IMG/VR virus record: IMGVR_UViG_3300020165_000119 | Location: 1 to 28,089 of that record | Length of the DNA: 28,089 nucleotides | DNA from: a virus | Strand: one strand, 5' to 3' | Shown: positions 6,628 through 28,089 of the stretch, piece by piece | Position numbering within the stretch: the stretch's first letter is position 1 | How the letters are laid out: each line of letters begins with the position of its first letter | Program-made: the position numbers and the translations under genes | Notes under the pieces: model-generated | Database searches by the model: none | What the model was told of the DNA's origin: nothing | What the model saw: only the letters and a program-made list of their open reading frames with translations

Positions 6628-6636
6628 TATAAATAT
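6628..6636 (-). promoter_or_regulatory. ATATTTATA element, 13 nt before the fibre-like gene
   Basis: The minus-strand context AATATTTATAAATAAACC also contains TATAAATA, the T4 late promoter core, in the direction of transcription. Confidence 0.45.
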
Positions 6637-9401: not shown

Positions 9402-10736
9402 TTAATTTGTTGCTACTGGAGCGTTAACTATTACATATTCTACATCTACACTTCCGGATATAGCATACACAGAAATAAATTCTATATCCTGTTCAAAATT
9501 ACCATTAAATTTACTTCCTGAACAATTTGGAGAAGAAAATACTATTGATGATGTAGGTAAACATTCCATTGTCCAATAACTTTTAGTTCCTGTTAAAGAA
9601 AAGTCATCCATAGATAATATATAAGATAAATCATTTGTTGGATTTCCTATATTAGCTTTAGCTACAGTTATTGAATCCCCTACATTATATAAATTTCCTC
9701 CTGTTTGAATTGTAACATTAGTTGGTCTTACTGTAAGATTAGCTGCTGTTAATGCTGGTAGGGTATTTGCTACAGATGTTGCCATATTAGTTGATGATAA
9801 ATTACCTACATAATCCCCACTTACAGCCCCAAATCCTAAAGTTTCTAATAATGATTCTTTAATTACTATATCTTGATTTACTGCATAACCTAATCCAACT
9901 GCTTCTATAGTTGCTCCAATAATAACTCCTCCTGCTGATACAACTCGAATTGTTGCGCCCTGTCCTGTAGAAGTTGTTATTGGTATATCTCCTATTGTAG
10001 TATTATTAGTTACTGTAGGTGCTATTATATTTGTTAAATCGGTTGCTTTTACTAAATTACCATTAGATAAAGCACCTGCTGGTATTACTAATTGATCTCC
10101 AACAGCATAATCTGATCCAGATGTTACAAATGATAACGATGTATAAGTTGGGATAGAAGCATCATTTCCAGCTCCTGCTGTTACAGTAACAGAACCTGTT
10201 GCTCCAGTTCCAACACCCCCAATTAAAGGTACAATATATGTTCCTATAGCTGCGTTTGTAGTAGTAGCAGGAGTTAATGTGACAGCTGGGGTTGAATTTA
10301 AAGTTTCAGCAGTTATTACACGAAGTGTCATTCCTGTACCATTACCTGTTGTTGTTGTTGGGATATTTGAATAAGTTCCTCTTGTTCCATTTATACCACC
10401 ACTACTATAAGAACCACTTAAATCTGATCCTACATTTCCTGATTCTGATTCTCCATTTGATGAAGTAAAAGAAATAGCTAAACGATTAGAATCATCCATA
10501 TTCGTAATTCTTCCATAAGCTATACTATATGAAGGGAATAAAGCAGGACCAGGAGTTAAACCATTTGTATTAATTAAATCTACATTAGTTTCAGATGGAA
10601 CTGTTACAATTCTTCTATCGTAATTAGTTACATTAGGAATTCTATAAAAATTTTCATGTACAGTTCTTTGACCGCCAACAATATGTTCTTCTTTTATATT
10701 TACACGAAAAGTATTTGGATTTACAGTTGATGCCAT
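9402..10736 (-). CDS. Virion structural protein with repeated G-x-x-Y-x-x-G-D motifs
   Basis: 444 residues, no recognised enzyme motif. Residues 1-90 and about 370-444 look like two halves of one domain (TNMDDSNRLAISF early; SYWTMECLPTSSIVF and DVEYVIVNAP late). Between them is a Thr/Gly/Ala-rich insert with three copies of a short motif: GSDYAVGDQLVI (207-218), GLGYAVNQDIVI (281-292) and NLYNVGDSITV (348-358). The same motif occurs once in the capsid insertion (GRGYAAGDVLTW, 377-388). Position between PhoH and the neck genes and the beta-rich composition point to a virion or decoration protein. I do not recognise a T4 counterpart. An ATATTTATA element lies 11 nt before the ATG. Confidence 0.65.
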   Translation of the reverse strand: MASTVNPNTFRVNIKEEHIVGGQRTVHENFYRIPNVTNYDRRIVTVPSETNVDLINTNGLTPGPALFPSYSIAYGRITNMDDSNRLAISFTSSNGESESGNVGSDLSGSYSSGGINGTRGTYSNIPTTTTGNGTGMTLRVITAETLNSTPAVTLTPATTTNAAIGTYIVPLIGGVGTGATGSVTVTAGAGNDASIPTYTSLSFVTSGSDYAVGDQLVIPAGALSNGNLVKATDLTNIIAPTVTNNTTIGDIPITTSTGQGATIRVVSAGGVIIGATIEAVGLGYAVNQDIVIKESLLETLGFGAVSGDYVGNLSSTNMATSVANTLPALTAANLTVRPTNVTIQTGGNLYNVGDSITVAKANIGNPTNDLSYILSMDDFSLTGTKSYWTMECLPTSSIVFSSPNCSGSKFNGNFEQDIEFISVYAISGSVDVEYVIVNAPVATN

Positions 10737-10747
10737 TTTATTTTTGT

Positions 10748-10756
10748 TATAAATAT
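10748..10756 (-). promoter_or_regulatory. ATATTTATA element, 11 nt before the 444-residue virion gene
   Basis: Lies in the 49-nt gap after phoH; identical over 17 bp to the site at 25023-25039. Confidence 0.4.
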
Positions 10757-10785: not shown

Positions 10786-11520
10786 TTATTTTTTTCGGCT
10801 TTTTCCACTACTTCCAGAAGTACTTAATATTCCTCTTTCTTCTGCTTCTTCATATATTTCAATTAAATCATCAACTATAGGATCTCTATGGTTTTGCATT
10901 AAAGTAACACCCCCCATTTTTTTAACTTTTCTTGAAGCAGCATATAAAAATCTAAATCCAGAATCTGCTTTACTTCTTAAATCTACTTGATGGTCATCCC
11001 CACAAACTATCATTTTAGATCTTAAACCAATTCTAGTTGATATCATTTCCATTTGTTCATGAGTAACATTTTGTGCTTCATCTACAATAATACATGAATC
11101 TAAAAAAGTTCTACCCCTCATAAAGGCTAAAGGAACTATTTCAATTGCTCCATCTTCAATTAATTTTTCTATTTTTACTTTATCATAAAGGGTATACATA
11201 TTTTGATAAATAGGTTGAATCCAGGGATCCATTTTTTCTCTTAAATCTCCTGGGAGAAAACCTATTTCTTCTTTTGATACTGTAGGTCTGGTGATTATAA
11301 TTTTAGAATAATGTCTTCTTAATAAACCATCTAGAGCTACATTACAAGCTAATAAAGTTTTACCAGATCCAGCTTTACCAGCTAATATAGTTAAAGTGTT
11401 TTCTAATATTTTAGCTTTTGCTTCTTTTTGTTCTTTATTTAATTGTATTTTAAACTTTATAGGATTTTTCACTATTCGTTTTTTTCTAAAAACTTCGTCA
11501 CTATGATGGTTTGAGGTCAT
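10786..11520 (-). CDS. phoH: PhoH-like P-loop ATPase
   Basis: 244 residues. Walker A is GKAGSGKT (48-55), Walker B CIIVDEAQN (143-151), and a sensor-like GDDHQVDLR follows (174-182). IIITRPTV, GFLPGDL and FMRGRTFLD are hallmarks of PhoH. The family is common in marine phages, often annotated as phosphate-starvation related. Cellular PhoH2 forms have been linked to RNA helicase/RNase activity, but the phage role is not established. The protein is short and lacks a PIN domain, as is usual for phage copies. Its start overlaps the end of the decarboxylase gene by 20 nt, suggesting translational coupling within the pentein-PSD-PhoH trio. The C-terminus is basic (GKSRKK). Confidence 0.93.
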   Translation of the reverse strand: MTSNHHSDEVFRKKRIVKNPIKFKIQLNKEQKEAKAKILENTLTILAGKAGSGKTLLACNVALDGLLRRHYSKIIITRPTVSKEEIGFLPGDLREKMDPWIQPIYQNMYTLYDKVKIEKLIEDGAIEIVPLAFMRGRTFLDSCIIVDEAQNVTHEQMEMISTRIGLRSKMIVCGDDHQVDLRSKADSGFRFLYAASRKVKKMGGVTLMQNHRDPIVDDLIEIYEEAEERGILSTSGSSGKSRKK

Positions 11521-12229
11521 TATTATGGATTTTAATTAGTTTATCTAAACCTGCATTTATATGCATTGTTTCTTGTAATAAAATTTCAAATGTAAATCTA
11601 TTATCTAAAGGTAAAACTAAGTCTACTTGAGAACCCCATCTAATTAAGCTAAATCTTTCATTTTGGGTGCAAAAATCTTGTTGTTTTTTAAATGGAGCAA
11701 TTACATTTACATCTTCATCAGCAATTTGTATTATATGGTATGTATAGTCTAAAGAAGGCACATATATTTGATTAGACATTCTTTCATTAAATTTTAAGTA
11801 ATCCATATTATTAGGATTAATTACTTTATTTAAAATATCTTTTTCTACAGCTAACATAGGTTTATTTGTGGATTCTATAGGTTCTAAACTTTTATATTTT
11901 AAAACTCCCCCATATGGGATTCTATTAATATGTACGTCATAAAAAGACATAAATATTCCTATAACCAAAGAAGGTTTATTATAATTTTTATCTCCCATTA
12001 CATCTTGAATAGTGTAATCTATACCTTTAATTTCAAGTACTTGTTCCTCAGGTTGTACTATTTTTTGATAAAGAATAGTTCCATCAGCTGGGCTGTAAAA
12101 ATGCTTATAGTCAATGTGGGTAGGTCTTATTGGGTCTCTAAAGAAAAAGGTATTACTTAATTCACCTATTGGTAATTTAGATAATTCAGCAACTTCTCCA
12201 TTTAGCCAATCTTCTAATTTTTCAGCCAT
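11501..12229 (-). CDS. psd: Phosphatidylserine decarboxylase-like pyruvoyl enzyme
   Basis: 242 residues. It carries the signature set of the short soluble PSD branch: FFFRDPIRP (28-36), SPADG with catalytic Asp49 (46-50), FMSFYDVHINRIP with His100, NER (148-150), and ERFSLIRWGSQVDLVLP (191-207). In this family, self-cleavage between Gly and Ser converts Ser200 into the pyruvoyl cofactor; here the cleavage tetrapeptide is WGSQ rather than the common LGST or FGSx, but the Gly-Ser pair, Asp and His are all kept. The reaction would convert phosphatidylserine (or an archaetidylserine-like lipid) to the ethanolamine form. No membrane segment is obvious. Its ATG overlaps the previous stop by 1 nt (TAATG) and its end overlaps phoH. 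Activity is inferred from intact residues. Confidence 0.85.
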   Translation of the reverse strand: MAEKLEDWLNGEVAELSKLPIGELSNTFFFRDPIRPTHIDYKHFYSPADGTILYQKIVQPEEQVLEIKGIDYTIQDVMGDKNYNKPSLVIGIFMSFYDVHINRIPYGGVLKYKSLEPIESTNKPMLAVEKDILNKVINPNNMDYLKFNERMSNQIYVPSLDYTYHIIQIADEDVNVIAPFKKQQDFCTQNERFSLIRWGSQVDLVLPLDNRFTFEILLQETMHINAGLDKLIKIHNNDLKPS

Positions 12230-13143
12230 TAAAGAAGTGATTTAAAATGATCTACTCTATTTAAATGCATTACCATACAACTTAACATAGCACCTGATTT
12301 CATATATTCGGATAAGTTAAAAATTACTGGTTCCATTCCTTCATCAGAACATATTTTTTCTAATGAAGATATTTTATGTTTTTCACCTTCATAAAATTCA
12401 TCTCCTCGTTTCATTTCTGATATATTAGAAGCACATAAAATCATATTACCTAACCTAACAGAATTAGCCATTCCATACATTGAGTCTTCAGCATCTATGT
12501 CTATTATATTAGTATATTTGTTAATTTGCGCTAACTCGGTTTTATCATATAACTCAGTACAAACCATAGTTGACCGCGTATTTAACGGAAAAATACTACA
12601 ATCTAAATGATACATATACTCATCAACCATTTTAACTTTAATAACTTTCATATTAAAATTTTCTTCCATCCAGTGATATGTTTTTATATCTGAACGGATA
12701 TCATATCCTCCTATATAAACATTATCTTTTAAATATTTTATATCTGCTTCACCTTCCCATTTATGAGGAGATATATGGGTATTATAACCCATTTGATTAA
12801 AGAATTTTTCTCCTACATATTCTTCACCTTGTCTAGGAGGTGAAGTATAATTAGATAATAAAATATGATTTTTTTCTTTAATATGAGGTAATTGTAAACC
12901 TAAATTAGCAACATATATTAAATCCTGAAAATTGCCTTCAGCAGGTAATAAATGTACTAATGACTGACCTGCCATAAAATTATAGAGATCCATAAATTGT
13001 TTATAAGCTTTAGGTCTATTAATTGATAATTCTTTTTCGGACATTTCTTTCATCCAAACATTATTTGGATCATTAGTAGAAAAAGTATGTGGGAAATTCA
13101 TTACATAACTTTGAATTGGTAACTGTGAGGGTGTCTCTTTCAT
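12229..13143 (-). CDS. Pentein-fold hydrolase/amidinotransferase (DDAH-like)
   Basis: 304 residues. Residues 72-85 (FQDLIYVANLGLQL) match the substrate-loop strand of dimethylargininase/amidinotransferase enzymes. EGEAD (130-134) corresponds to the family's E-G-(E/G)-D motif. YHLDCS gives the catalytic His179, and SGAMLSCMVMHL near the C-terminus gives the nucleophile Cys289. The catalytic set of a guanidine-modifying pentein is therefore present. Candidate reactions are hydrolysis of methylarginine, arginine or a related guanidine; sequence alone cannot choose. It is the first gene after the capsid terminator, with its own roughly 75-nt leader holding palindromic elements, and its stop overlaps the decarboxylase start (TAATG). 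Confidence 0.8.
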   Translation of the reverse strand: MKETPSQLPIQSYVMNFPHTFSTNDPNNVWMKEMSEKELSINRPKAYKQFMDLYNFMAGQSLVHLLPAEGNFQDLIYVANLGLQLPHIKEKNHILLSNYTSPPRQGEEYVGEKFFNQMGYNTHISPHKWEGEADIKYLKDNVYIGGYDIRSDIKTYHWMEENFNMKVIKVKMVDEYMYHLDCSIFPLNTRSTMVCTELYDKTELAQINKYTNIIDIDAEDSMYGMANSVRLGNMILCASNISEMKRGDEFYEGEKHKISSLEKICSDEGMEPVIFNLSEYMKSGAMLSCMVMHLNRVDHFKSLL

Positions 13144-13167
13144 TTTAAAACTTTTTATTTAATAATT

Positions 13168-13187
13168 TATTATCATGTATACATATA
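13168..13187 (-). promoter_or_regulatory. Candidate promoter/operator element before the pentein gene
   Basis: On the minus strand TATATGTATA (13187-13178), then 4 nt, then ATAATA (13173-13168). Nearly the same pair (TATACGTATA, 3 nt, ATAATA) occurs before the scaffold gene, and each lies just past a terminator. The + strand also shows a perfect 10-bp palindrome ATGTATACAT at 13175-13184. Confidence 0.4.
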
Positions 13188-13192
13188 CTAAT

Positions 13193-13205
13193 TACCTAGT
13201 AGGTA
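13193..13205. repeat. 13-bp inverted repeat TACCTA-G-TAGGTA
   Basis: Perfect 6-bp arms around one base, in the gap between the capsid terminator and the pentein gene. The short centre makes an RNA hairpin unlikely, so a dimeric protein-binding site is the likelier reading. Confidence 0.35.
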
Positions 13206-13213
13206 TATTATTT

Positions 13214-13247
13214 AAGTAAAAAAAAGCCCCGCTTTCGCGAGGCTTTT
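13214..13247 (-). terminator. Rho-independent terminator after the major capsid gene
   Basis: In minus-strand transcripts AAAAGCCTCGC pairs with GCGGGGCTTTT around a GAAA tetraloop (one G-U pair), followed by a run of eight T (complement of 13218-13225). It begins 23 nt past the capsid stop. The + strand version has one C-A mismatch, so it works best for minus-strand transcription. Confidence 0.9.
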
Positions 13248-13269: not shown

Positions 13270-15489
13270 TTAAATAGTATTCAAGTTTGAAACGAAGATT
13301 CTTCCGTAGAATTCCGGTCTTAACATCTTCTTAGCATAACGAGTTAATAAACCTTTTCTTGGAGTAAAGGTTGTTGGATCGTATACTAATGGAGTCATGA
13401 TAAGTGGAATGTATGGAGAGAATACAGCACCTGCTTCTAAGAACTGACCACCTCTGTATCCTAATAGGATAGTGTTGTCTGTCATATAAGGGTTTTTGTA
13501 AACTTGGTATCTACCATTCATTGATCCAGCTTTCTGAACACCAAATGCATAGCTCATTTTAGCAGCATCACCATCTGAGTTACTAGCAAATCCTGGAATA
13601 GATTCAATAATAGTAGCTACACTTGGAGAACATACCATAAAATTAGCTCCACCTCTAAGAGTTCTTTGGTGAATAACATTACTTAACTTCTGAACTTTAG
13701 TTCCTAAAGTTTGGAACCATTGTCCTTGAGAGTTAAAGAAATTCAAGTTACCATTCACAACACCACCAGCACCAATTGCTAAGTTGTTTTGTGCACTCCA
13801 ATATTCATCTCCAGCACCTGCTGATTCGATTAACATTGAAAGGATTTCTTGATCAATTTCTAATGAAATATACTCACTCATGATTGAAGTTAATTCAGCT
13901 TCTGCATCTAGAGAATGGTAAGCATTTAGATCTTGAGCAAACTCAGGAGTCCAAACAGCTTTTAATTTTCTAGTTTTAGCAACTATAGCTTCACTTCTCA
14001 TTGCAACATTGATTTCTGGAATAGCAATTGGAGTATTGAAACCAGAACCACCAGCAGCAGGATTACCTAAAGCAGCATTTCCATCTTCAAAATCACCTCT
14101 GTTATTATCAGAAGGTTGTAGAGTTTGTTGAACGTTAAATCCAGTTACTGTTGAATTAACACCAGCACCTAAATCTACTACCCATCCTGCAGTTGCACCT
14201 GCAGCTGAAATAGTACCTAATCCGAAGAAAGATATTACACCAGCAGCTGGAATACTTGCAGCATCTAAAGTAATTGAAATTGCAGTACCTGCAACAGCAG
14301 CTAAAGTGTTAGGAATTGCAGCACCAGACCATGTTAAAACATCACCTGCAGCATATCCTCTACCTGGGTTGTTAATAGCTACAACAGAAGCTAAACCAGC
14401 ACCAGCATTACCTAATACGTCAATTGTAAGTCCAACACCATTTGCAGAAGTTGAAGTTGTACATTTTACGTTTAAGTCATCTACACCAGCACCAGCGTTA
14501 GTACCATTAGTTAATGTTAAAGCACCAGCAGGTACAGTTGAAAGTGTACATCCAACTTTACTACCTGTTGCTAATGCATTTTGTGCAGGAGCAGGTAAGT
14601 AAGCACCTTGATCAATTTTCGTGAATGCCGGTAATTGAGTAGCTAATAAAGCATTACCTGCAGCATTTGAAGTTAAATAAAAACCTTCAATAGCTTCTAA
14701 ATCAGCAAATGTTTGCAATAATGAAAGTGCAGGAACAGCAACTGATCCAGCAATACTTAATGTAGCAGGAGCTGAACATTTAGTTACTGTAGTAGCAACT
14801 GAAGTTTGTAAACCATCAAATGCTTGAGCAGCAACACCTGTTAAAGCAAATGGGAATGTTGAATCTGCATCTAAATCTAGATAAAAATCAGCATTACCAA
14901 CAACAGCACAGTCAGTTAATTGACCACCTACAACAGTGTTGAAATTTTGAGTTGAGTATCCAAATCTACCAGCACCATAAAGACCACCTGCAGCAGCGTT
15001 ACCAAAACCACTAGTGTTAGTAGCTGGGTTAACTGGTGAAGGAGTACCATATAATGAAGTACCGTTAGCGAATGGTAATTTTGCAGCATTTCCTGCGGTA
15101 GCTGGAGATGCAACTTGAGTACCACCATATTGGAAGTCTAAGTAAAATACTAGACCTGAAGGAAGGTTCATTGGTTGAACCGAAACGAATTCTTTCGCTG
15201 CGATTTGTCCAAATACCTTTCTTACTAATGGTAAAGCAACTCCAGCCCATTGACCAGCAGCTCCCGTACCAGGGTTAAAAGTACCAGTACCTCCACCCGT
15301 CTGAGTGTTCTCTGTTACTAATTGTTTAGCTTGGTTTTCTAAGATCATAGACATATTGTTTTTGTCTTGCTCAGTAGCCATGCCTTCAAGTAATCCTGTT
15401 TTGGACCACTTGTCAGCTAATCTTGCAGCATCACTCTGTAGTGATTTGTAAGAATTAGCGCTTTCTAATAAAGAATTTAATTGTGACAT
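13270..15489 (-). CDS. 23: Major capsid protein, T4 gp23-like, with large insertion
   Basis: 739 residues against about 520 in T4. Residues 84-117 (VALPLVRKVFG, VQPMNLPSGLVFYLDF) and 504-540 (AKTRKLKAVWTPEFAQDL, then HSLDAEAELTSIMS) match the gp23 core, as do VCSPSVATIIE and the C-terminal SPYIPLIMTPLVYDP. The N-terminus has QLVTE at 56-60, aligning with the T4 prohead cleavage site (after Glu65), so a propeptide of about 60 residues is predicted to be removed by the prohead protease. About 390 residues separate the two core blocks, versus roughly 140 in T4. The extra part is Ala/Gly/Thr/Ser-rich and includes GRGYAAGDVLTW. It follows the scaffold gene by 34 nt and is closed by a terminator. 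Confidence 0.95.
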   Translation of the reverse strand: MSQLNSLLESANSYKSLQSDAARLADKWSKTGLLEGMATEQDKNNMSMILENQAKQLVTENTQTGGGTGTFNPGTGAAGQWAGVALPLVRKVFGQIAAKEFVSVQPMNLPSGLVFYLDFQYGGTQVASPATAGNAAKLPFANGTSLYGTPSPVNPATNTSGFGNAAAGGLYGAGRFGYSTQNFNTVVGGQLTDCAVVGNADFYLDLDADSTFPFALTGVAAQAFDGLQTSVATTVTKCSAPATLSIAGSVAVPALSLLQTFADLEAIEGFYLTSNAAGNALLATQLPAFTKIDQGAYLPAPAQNALATGSKVGCTLSTVPAGALTLTNGTNAGAGVDDLNVKCTTSTSANGVGLTIDVLGNAGAGLASVVAINNPGRGYAAGDVLTWSGAAIPNTLAAVAGTAISITLDAASIPAAGVISFFGLGTISAAGATAGWVVDLGAGVNSTVTGFNVQQTLQPSDNNRGDFEDGNAALGNPAAGGSGFNTPIAIPEINVAMRSEAIVAKTRKLKAVWTPEFAQDLNAYHSLDAEAELTSIMSEYISLEIDQEILSMLIESAGAGDEYWSAQNNLAIGAGGVVNGNLNFFNSQGQWFQTLGTKVQKLSNVIHQRTLRGGANFMVCSPSVATIIESIPGFASNSDGDAAKMSYAFGVQKAGSMNGRYQVYKNPYMTDNTILLGYRGGQFLEAGAVFSPYIPLIMTPLVYDPTTFTPRKGLLTRYAKKMLRPEFYGRIFVSNLNTI

Positions 15490-20433: not shown

Positions 20434-20442
20434 TATAAATAT
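20434..20442 (-). promoter_or_regulatory. ATATTTATA element, 12 nt before the 286-residue gene
   Basis: On the minus strand the context is CTATATATTTATACT, which also approximates the Bacteroidota -7 box TAnnTTTG. Confidence 0.4.
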
Positions 20443-22373: not shown

Positions 22374-22382
22374 TATAAATAT
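22374..22382 (-). promoter_or_regulatory. ATATTTATA element, 13 nt before the portal gene
   Basis: Lies in the terL-portal gap, touching the terL stop, and is followed by an A-rich run to the ATG. Same 9-mer and spacing as four other sites. Confidence 0.4.
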
Positions 22383-25028: not shown

Positions 25029-25037
25029 TATAAATAT
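25029..25037 (-). promoter_or_regulatory. ATATTTATA element, 16 nt before the 160-residue gene
   Basis: Part of a 17-bp stretch (+ strand TTTTGTTATAAATATCA, 25023-25039) also found exactly at 10742-10758. On the minus strand the stretch begins with the stop codon of the upstream gene. Confidence 0.4.
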
Positions 25038-25567
25038 CATAAAGAAACTGCTTGTTTAATCAATTTTATACGTTCTTCTGTTGATCCTTCAATTTCTACC
25101 AAATTTTTAATTTTATGTCTATATTTAGTAATTAAAAGCTGAATATTTTGATCAATTAGTTTTCTATATTCTATATTGGTTTCTCTTACTCCATTATTTT
25201 CAATTTCTACACCTTCAGGTGAAACATAAAATATATAATCATACTCATCTAACATATGAGATGCAAAATTACAAAAATCATCTGCTTCAAAATAATACAT
25301 TGATTCAGAACATTTAGCAAATGCCATTACATCAATAATAGTTCTATCTGTTATAATATTATCTTGCATTAATTCACTAGCTCTTTCAGCTAAAAACACA
25401 GCTTGACCCTTAACAGTTGAATCTGTATTTAATGGAATACCCATTTCCATAAGATATTTAGAACGTTCTGTTCTAAATTTATATTCTTTAAACTCTGGTA
25501 GTTCAGCTAAAGCATTAACTAAAGTTGTTTTACCTACACTCATTGTACCACAAAAACCTATTTTCAT
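25037..25567 (-). CDS. P-loop kinase/ATPase, NadR-like (AAA_28 type)
   Basis: 176 residues from the ATG at 25567, chosen over an ATG nine codons upstream because it gives MKIGFCG, leaves a 1-nt gap after the previous stop, and puts the P-loop in its normal place. Walker A is GTMSVGKTT (7-15). TDRTIIDVMAFA follows mid-protein, then YDYIFYVSPEGVEIENNGVR with Arg and EYRKLIDQNI, a pattern of NadR-type/AAA_28 nucleotide kinases. The substrate cannot be inferred; ribosylnicotinamide or nucleoside phosphorylation are family possibilities. It belongs to the accessory cassette with the cupin and dehydrogenase. Confidence 0.75.
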   Translation of the reverse strand: MKIGFCGTMSVGKTTLVNALAELPEFKEYKFRTERSKYLMEMGIPLNTDSTVKGQAVFLAERASELMQDNIITDRTIIDVMAFAKCSESMYYFEADDFCNFASHMLDEYDYIFYVSPEGVEIENNGVRETNIEYRKLIDQNIQLLITKYRHKIKNLVEIEGSTEERIKLIKQAVSL

Positions 25568-25568
25568 A

Positions 25569-25853
25569 TTATATATTATATCGCTCGTTACCAAGCATTA
25601 TTTTTAAAACATTCTCTGGAATAGCCGAATTTACAAATGGGTCTAATTTAGCTATAGCTTGAGTAACATCATGTGCTATAATAGGAACAACCTTAATAGT
25701 TCCATTATCTATATATTTACACTCATATAATAAATTATCTTTAATCTTAGATAAACCTAGTAGTTTAATTTCTAAGATTACTGTATTCCTATTTATTTCT
25801 ATCAAAGATGCTGCTAATTCTTGATCTTCTTGTTTATATTTTTTTCTAATCAT
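25569..25853 (-). CDS. Small unknown protein
   Basis: 94 residues, no recognised motif. It is soluble, with a basic N-terminus (MIRKKYKQEDQE) and alternating hydrophobic strands (NTVILEIKLLGL, GTIKVVPIIAHD). It starts 2 nt after the cupin stop and ends 1 nt before the kinase ATG, so it is co-transcribed with both. I cannot assign a function. Confidence 0.6.
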   Translation of the reverse strand: MIRKKYKQEDQELAASLIEINRNTVILEIKLLGLSKIKDNLLYECKYIDNGTIKVVPIIAHDVTQAIAKLDPFVNSAIPENVLKIMLGNERYNI

Positions 25854-26545: not shown

Positions 26546-28033
26546 TTATTTTAATTTATTTTGAAATTTCATAAAATCTTTATTTTTATCATTAGTTAAA
26601 CCTCCTACAGTATGGATTTTATCATCTTCTTCTGACCATGGTCCTGGTTTATCAGCCCATTCTAAAAAATCATTAATTTCTTTTTGATTATTTAAAATTT
26701 GTTCTGCTACTAATGTACCTTGTGCTCCTGATACTGTAATACCTCTAGCACTTAAAGCATCACCTACAAAATGTATATTAGGGTATGTGGTTAAACTTAA
26801 ATCATTATAATTTACTAATGGTTCAGGTGACAAATACTTTACTTCAGGTACATAAATACCCCAATCATCTTTAAGTGTTGGGAATACTTTTTTCATATCT
26901 TCAATAAAATCTTCTATATAACTATAATAACCTTGAAATGCATCTTTAACTCGGTCTAATGATTCAATAGGCATAGCATCAACTTTAATACCTTCACTAG
27001 TCATCCCAGCTTCACGAGTAGGAGAGTAATATAAACCTGTATGAGTTTTTCTTCTAAATCTACCTTGACCTTTAGAGTTATCAAACCAGGTTTCATTTAC
27101 AGCTTTAACTAACTCTCTTGACCAAGTAAAGGGTTCATCAATACCCTGAATTTCCATTAAAATGCCAAAATTAGTCATATTGTTCCTATGCTCTTCTCCT
27201 TTTTTAGCATGTCCATTGTAACTAACATCTCCATACGTTTTTTCAACGGCAACATATGCTGCATTGTTGTTTGTACAGAAAGAGCGTAGTGATACTCCTT
27301 TGTCTTCGAATTTACGATATAATTTAAAATCATAAGATACATCAATTAATTTTTGAAAGTGTTTTTGTGGTGCTTCAAATCGAACACCTATTTGTACCGG
27401 TTTTGATTCAGTTGGTAATTTATATTTTTCAGCTAATTGTTTACCAAAGTCAATACCTGATTTACCTACACCAAAAATAAGTGTATCGTATTCAAATGAA
27501 TGTTCTAAATCAGATTCAAGTACTACTACTTTACCTGTATTATTTTCAAAATCAATATCTGTAACTTTAGCTTCCCATTCAAATTGAACACCACCATCAA
27601 CTAAAAAGTCATACCAATTTTTACCTATTTCATGTAAATAATCTGTACCAACATGCCATACTGGGAATAAACGTAATCCAAAATATGGTTTAATAAATTC
27701 TGGTTCTGCAATAGGGTTTGAACATTGTACTTCTTCGGGTTTAGGGTGGAAACGTTTAAAATTATCAATCACCTGATCAAATAATTCCATTGCTTTTTCT
27801 TCACCACAATATTTAGATAATTGCCCTCCAATTGAAGTATGATAAGTTAATTTACCATCAGACCAACCTCCTGCTCCTAGGAAACCTGTCATTACCTCTT
27901 CATATGGTCTTAAATATGGATCTTTACCCATATCAATTATGGTAATTTTACCATCAAAACCATTATCAATTAGCTTAGTAGCAGCATTTACATTTGCTAC
28001 ACCTGCTCCAATCATTACTACGTTTTTACTCAT
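26546..28033 (-). CDS. FAD-dependent dehydrogenase (COG2509-like)
   Basis: 495 residues from the ATG at 28033; a GTG seven codons upstream (28054) is possible but gives an extension without family character. The N-terminal Rossmann motif is VVMIGAGVANVNAATKL (5-21). GAGGWSDGKLTYHTSIGGQL follows, typical of uncharacterised FAD-dependent dehydrogenases (G-x-x-SDGKL). VQIGVRFEAP and SLRSFCTNNNAAYVAVEK mid-protein match the same family. The C-terminus has the FAD-contact motif HFVGDALSARGITVSGAQG. The substrate is unknown. Such a full-length oxidoreductase is unusual beside a phage packaging module. The dense A-rich leader resembles other starts here. It is the first gene in the window; its promoter may lie outside. 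Confidence 0.85.
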   Translation of the reverse strand: MSKNVVMIGAGVANVNAATKLIDNGFDGKITIIDMGKDPYLRPYEEVMTGFLGAGGWSDGKLTYHTSIGGQLSKYCGEEKAMELFDQVIDNFKRFHPKPEEVQCSNPIAEPEFIKPYFGLRLFPVWHVGTDYLHEIGKNWYDFLVDGGVQFEWEAKVTDIDFENNTGKVVVLESDLEHSFEYDTLIFGVGKSGIDFGKQLAEKYKLPTESKPVQIGVRFEAPQKHFQKLIDVSYDFKLYRKFEDKGVSLRSFCTNNNAAYVAVEKTYGDVSYNGHAKKGEEHRNNMTNFGILMEIQGIDEPFTWSRELVKAVNETWFDNSKGQGRFRRKTHTGLYYSPTREAGMTSEGIKVDAMPIESLDRVKDAFQGYYSYIEDFIEDMKKVFPTLKDDWGIYVPEVKYLSPEPLVNYNDLSLTTYPNIHFVGDALSARGITVSGAQGTLVAEQILNNQKEINDFLEWADKPGPWSEEDDKIHTVGGLTNDKNKDFMKFQNKLK

Positions 28034-28089
28034 ATTGTCATTTATTTTTAACACATTAATATACGAACTAAGAATGGCGTCTCCTAGGG

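Follow-up and report, generated by a model that had tools for sequence, protein, structure and literature searches.

A phage gene pair of a pentein and a phosphatidylserine decarboxylase-like protein, predicted to form an arginine-to-amine route

Viral polyamine enzymes are well studied, among them pyruvoyl-dependent ornithine and arginine decarboxylases derived from SpeD, and a viral arginase acting with ornithine decarboxylase (ODC); the main texts of this work are silent on both phosphatidylserine decarboxylase (PSD) and arginine dihydrolase, and report no homologue of arginase from phages (PMC9992855, PMC10407285). Within the PSD family, the E. coli enzyme cannot bind the membrane without its amphipathic helices at the N-terminus (PMC7952604), PsiD is a tryptophan decarboxylase (PMC12603985), and viral psd has been classed as a lipid gene in a global ocean survey (PMC11360552). 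Arginine dihydrolases are represented by ArgZ/AgrE of the cyanobacterial ornithine-ammonia cycle. Here we describe a phage locus in which a gene for a protein of the PSD family is paired with one for a pentein resembling ArgZ. The open-access literature, to which our search was confined, yielded no description of this pair.

The DNA analysed, referred to below as the window, is the whole stretch of 28,089 nucleotides from IMG/VR virus record IMGVR_UViG_3300020165_000119 and belongs to a marine phage. Its minus strand carries overlapping genes for a pentein, a PSD-family protein (hereafter PSD-like protein) and a PhoH-family ATPase (Table 1). The arrangement is as given in the initial annotation, including both overlaps: base 12229 is common to the pentein stop and the PSD-like start in a TAATG junction (1-nt overlap), and the PSD-like and PhoH genes share 20 nt (11501-11520). 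The trio also lies between capsid and virion genes as claimed, with gp23 upstream and a gp18-domain-like protein downstream, and the proposed leader of its own was borne out by a terminator hairpin between gp23 and pentein, followed by the motif ATATGTATA. The arrangement is not a product of chance, because the pentein/PSD-like pair and its 1-nt overlap were found again in almost every relative. The neighbouring gp23 is 66% identical to that of Flavobacterium phage immuto over the aligned parts (55% of the protein); it is unusually long (739 aa), and about 40% of it, apparently a large insertion, did not align to related capsid proteins. The window further encodes a thymidylate-kinase-like and a dehydrogenase-like protein, both located past the head gene block on its terminase side.

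Table 1. Features of the window on which the analysis draws.
Feature	Position	Strand	Remarks
gp18-domain-like virion protein	9402-10736		downstream neighbour of trio
PhoH-family ATPase	10786-11520	minus	244 aa; PF02562, 1.3e-62
PSD-family (PSD-like) protein	11501-12229	minus	242 aa
PSD-like G199-S200 (cleavage site)	11630-11635	minus	further residues: D49, D98, H100, D173
PSD-like D171	11717-11719	minus	
PSD-like E129	11843-11845	minus	
Pentein	12229-13143	minus	304 aa
Pentein C289	12277-12279	minus	further residues: R104, R150
Pentein H179	12607-12609	minus	
Pentein E130	12754-12756	minus	
Pentein N80	12904-12906	minus	
ATATGTATA, late-promoter-like motif	13178-13186	minus	34 nt ahead of pentein ATG
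Intrinsic terminator closing gp23 transcript	13218-13247	minus	upstream of pentein; -21.9 kcal/mol, z -6.0 (folding)
gp23	13270-15489	minus	upstream neighbour of pentein
ATATTTATA motif	6628-6636, 10748-10756, 20434-20442, 22374-22382, 25029-25037	minus	
Thymidylate-kinase-like protein	25037-25594	minus	
Dehydrogenase-like protein	26546-28054	minus	phrog_12409

Among 50,697 annotated phage records, pentein and PSD-like matches occurred in the same 45 (Fletchervirus and Bacteroides phages), with a partial match in one additional, pentein-only record. Of the 152 loci from IMG/VR and phages that were compared first, 146 had both genes, overlapping by 1 nt in 141 of these; the remaining six, without both genes together, comprised the two from Fletchervirus and four truncated at the end of a contig. 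Overall, hundreds of phage relatives and some bacteria have the pair. The genes adjoin in Bacteroides phages and lie approximately 42 kb apart in Campylobacter Fletchervirus. Such separation in relatives had been named as a finding that would speak against joint function, but both genes were always kept in Fletchervirus, indicating that linkage is not what holds the pair together. A GIY-YIG-like homing endonuclease frame lies inside the pair in one locus (L161:1907-2665) and probably also in a second (L154:10910-11437), and the PSD-like gene of Fletchervirus likewise has a homing endonuclease overlapping it. In Flavobacterium phage immuto, PhoH is encoded downstream of or near gp23 and the pair is absent, which rules out the trio as one unit; PhoH is thus probably a resident overlapping neighbour outside the functional pair. 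The joint function originally suggested for all three proteins is strongly supported for the pentein and the PSD-like protein, which co-occur even when unlinked and are paired in bacteria too, but it does not extend to PhoH. The functional unit is the pair.

The terminator closing the gp23 transcript was detected by folding and missed by a generic terminator scan; a GC-hairpin with a T-run was seen again upstream of the pentein in many relatives. Motifs of the class ATAT[TG]TATA are present in the window in eight minus-strand and no plus-strand copies. Six of the eight are intergenic, in a window with 1.9% intergenic DNA (binomial P ~1e-9), and all intergenic copies precede genes, e.g. those for the portal and the gp18-like protein. 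At the equivalent spot upstream of the pentein, relatives carry a TATAT[T/G]TATA-type element. The ATATTTATA motif, absent from the plus strand, lies 11-16 nt ahead of virion and packaging genes and probably serves this group of phages as a late promoter. We read the motif ahead of the pentein as a late-type promoter, which would make expression of the pair late. A search of the pentein leader for RNA elements gave no Rfam match, and sigma-70 promoters were discarded as candidates, their count being no higher than in shuffled sequences.

A scan of GTDB genomes gave 11 pentein loci. One of these (L289, NZWA01000018.1) is a phage contig that carries gp23 together with the pair and was binned in a Flavobacteriales genome, which points to a Bacteroidota host for this phage group; L337, a locus in a Verrucomicrobia bin, also resembles a phage contig. 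The pair was found in at least seven bacteria of several phyla. The PSD-like gene precedes the pentein gene in six loci (Caulobacteraceae, another proteobacterium, Verrucomicrobia, Gemmatimonadetes, Streptomyces and Actinobacteria) and follows it in Saprospiraceae; genome surveys added two more examples. A MATE exporter is encoded downstream in six loci (L294, L296, L298, L299, L338, L339) and an ABC exporter in two (L290, L291); for L292 and L293, no exporter gene comes immediately downstream in the same orientation. Wider genome samples showed the PSD-like gene to be rare among bacteria (2/338, 2/249 and, with a loose cut-off, 3/296). Of the eight genomes that matched PF02666, six encode a canonical PSD in addition, with a higher score. 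The search for plasmid-borne copies returned only PSD-type matches, which covered three quarters of the query at approximately 30% identity.

Cyanobacterial pentein matches were nearly all long ArgZ/AgrE-type frames, apart from that of Dulcicalothrix. Here the pentein gene (48% identity) is followed by one for a PLP decarboxylase rather than by a PSD-like gene; the best solved relatives of this enzyme are lysine/ornithine decarboxylases (8e-40), and the genome gave no PF02666 match. In this one genome, one amino-acid decarboxylase looks to have been exchanged for another. The next gene encodes an agmatine-deiminase-like protein, so the Dulcicalothrix decarboxylase might act on arginine. In this region (L295:2-9230, 11017-13244), the three genes lie beside very large frames of 1,263 and 1,815 aa, which look like an assembly-line cluster.

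The pentein of the window matched no Pfam family at E<=0.1. It matched NCBIfam arginine dihydrolase/dimethylargininase models at 4e-24, its 85.2 bits lying below the curated arginine dihydrolase cut-off of 450 bits, and it also matched ArgZ/AgrE structures in a PDB sequence search. Foldseek comparison of the structural model (pLDDT 94) gave E-values of about 1e-20 for ArgZ/AgrE (ArgZ 2.5e-20) versus about 1e-12 for DDAH. The Cys-His-Glu triad of penteins (C289, H179, E130) is present and was conserved in 136/136 relatives, as were R104 and R150, which align with ArgZ arginines. N80, conserved in 135/136, aligns with ArgZ N71, the column occupied by Ser in the N71S structure 6juz. The protein is predicted to be an ArgZ/DDAH-like arginine dihydrolase, closest to ArgZ; counting against an arginine substrate is that substrate choice changes easily among pentein subfamilies. 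Together with its partner, we consider it moderately probable that the pentein serves a route from arginine via ornithine to putrescine, with an amino-acid decarboxylase of the PSD family at the second step. Other substrates or another order of steps appear unlikely to us: with citrulline as pentein product, the decarboxylase step could yield N-carbamoylputrescine, or agmatine could be formed first, by the PSD-like protein, and the pentein could then act on it. DDAH- and ADI-type penteins do yield citrulline (PMC11659421), and an agmatine-deiminase-like gene is part of the Dulcicalothrix cluster, but the conserved N71 equivalent favours a dihydrolase over a deiminase. The invariant R104 and R150 argue against agmatine as pentein substrate: such arginines hold the substrate carboxylate in DDAH, and would do so here.

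The PSD-like protein matched PF02666 at 8.7e-26, its best score for an NCBIfam PSD equivalog (75.7 bits) being below the cut-off of 183. The self-cleaving Gly-Ser and the catalytic His/Asp of PSDs are retained, with G199, S200, H100, D49 and E129 conserved in 134/134 sequences, D171 in 133/134 and D98 in 132/134. Its AF2 model (pLDDT 85) superposed loosely on solved PSDs (TM 0.4-0.5); in Foldseek, E. coli PSD was the top match by E-value and PsiD the second, with a higher TM-score. The Pfam match, the conserved autocleavage residues and the top structural match would all suit a true phosphatidylserine decarboxylase in a cassette for late remodelling of the host membrane, as first proposed; the pentein would then act on a separate amino-acid pool. 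MATE and MsbA-type ABC proteins are also able to move lipids, and the ocean survey counts viral psd among lipid genes (PMC11360552). We nevertheless regard such a role as quite improbable. In a phylogenetic tree, the PSD-like clade was separate from canonical PSDs with support of 100/100. None of 133 PSD-like sequences, with an N-terminus of approximately 28 residues, had a hydrophobic N-terminal segment (maximum 19-residue hydropathy 0.28, a test that leaves amphipathic helices possible), versus N-terminal values of 1.9-2.6 in all but one of the five short canonical PSDs, in a comparison of seven canonical PSDs whose N-termini were taken from open frames and may in part be overlong. This differs from E. 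coli PSD with its membrane-binding helices (PMC7952604). Moreover, the canonical motif AG..A(R/K)R is replaced by AD..D, acidic for basic, and an insertion carries an invariant MLxxE of which the Glu is E129. The canonical PSD already encoded elsewhere in most pair-bearing genomes, the constant partnership with an arginine-type pentein and the ODC-like swap in Dulcicalothrix likewise speak against a lipid substrate. The lipid interpretation of the trio is thus probably wrong, and the PSD-like protein is predicted to be a soluble pyruvoyl-dependent amino-acid (ornithine) decarboxylase.

It is highly improbable that the pair makes an exported amine or natural-product building block (signal, toxin or metal binder) with which phages would compete or take over the host, and which would not serve as a polyamine supply. 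In favour of this, an exporter adjoins the pair or the pentein in eight bacterial loci, the Dulcicalothrix copy adjoins the two large frames, and the PSD-like protein is noted in a Fletchervirus record as similar to AF210249_12, which we take to be a bleomycin-cluster entry. Against it, phage units have neither an exporter nor other tailoring enzymes beside the pair.

In the arginine-to-putrescine route, the pentein, by homology to ArgZ, would strip both guanidine nitrogens from L-arginine by Cys chemistry to yield L-ornithine. The PSD-like protein would self-cleave at Gly199-Ser200 to form a pyruvoyl group, and would then decarboxylate ornithine to putrescine; a free amino acid is suggested as substrate because the protein appears soluble and is acidic where PSDs are basic. 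In bacteria the amine product would leave the cell via the MATE or ABC transporter, whereas phages would have dropped the exporter, so that the amine stays in the infected cell. Polyamines act as polycations in phage translation and DNA packaging, and the late-type promoter beside capsid genes suggests that the amine would most likely serve as a polycation, both in the synthesis of late proteins and in neutralising the DNA being packaged. Modification of DNA bases with an amine side chain was also considered. A spermidine pathway was rejected, as AdoMet decarboxylase (PF02675) and spermidine synthase (PF01564) were detected in 0/15 phage records; neither is needed for putrescine, and the end point would be putrescine itself or use by host enzymes. 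The sequences themselves show the pair and its co-occurrence, the conserved catalytic residues, the missing hydrophobic N-terminal segment, the exporters and the ODC-like swap; we infer the substrates, products, timing and purpose of the pair. A broader proposal, which in our judgement stands evenly balanced, is that the PSD family holds an undescribed pyruvoyl-dependent ornithine decarboxylase which, with a stand-alone dihydrolase, would form an ATP- and PLP-free module for making putrescine from arginine. In scattered bacteria this module would be coupled to an exporter; tailed phages of Bacteroidota and Campylobacter, whose psd genes bear lipid annotations, would have captured it without one.

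If true, viral psd annotation, treated as lipid-related in the ocean survey, would need correction, phages of very different hosts would have acquired the same arginine-to-amine route, and amino-acid decarboxylation in the PSD family would extend beyond fungal PsiD. Two small proteins and a standard amine assay would suffice to test this reading.

Compared with known systems, the pentein shares with ArgZ/AgrE the fold, the Cys/His/Glu residues, the N71 equivalent and two aligned arginines. It differs in its low identity (approximately 21% in the structural match), in scoring below the NCBIfam cut-off, and in standing alone with a decarboxylase partner where ArgZ/AgrE is fused to ornithine cyclodeaminase. 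The PSD-like protein resembles PSDs (PF02666) in fold family, Gly-Ser self-cleavage site and Asp and His positions, but forms a separate clade without the hydrophobic N-terminus and with the acidic motif and MLxxE insertion. PsiD, the Psilocybe L-tryptophan decarboxylase, was the second structural match; it belongs to the PSD family and uses a free amino acid, as predicted for the PSD-like protein, but it is fungal, takes an aromatic substrate and is only 10% identical to the PSD-like protein. Finally, the described viral polyamine enzymes share with the predicted route the arginine-to-putrescine logic and the pyruvoyl chemistry (PMC9992855, PMC10407285), whereas here a pentein would take the place of arginase, and a PSD-family protein that of the SpeD-type decarboxylase.
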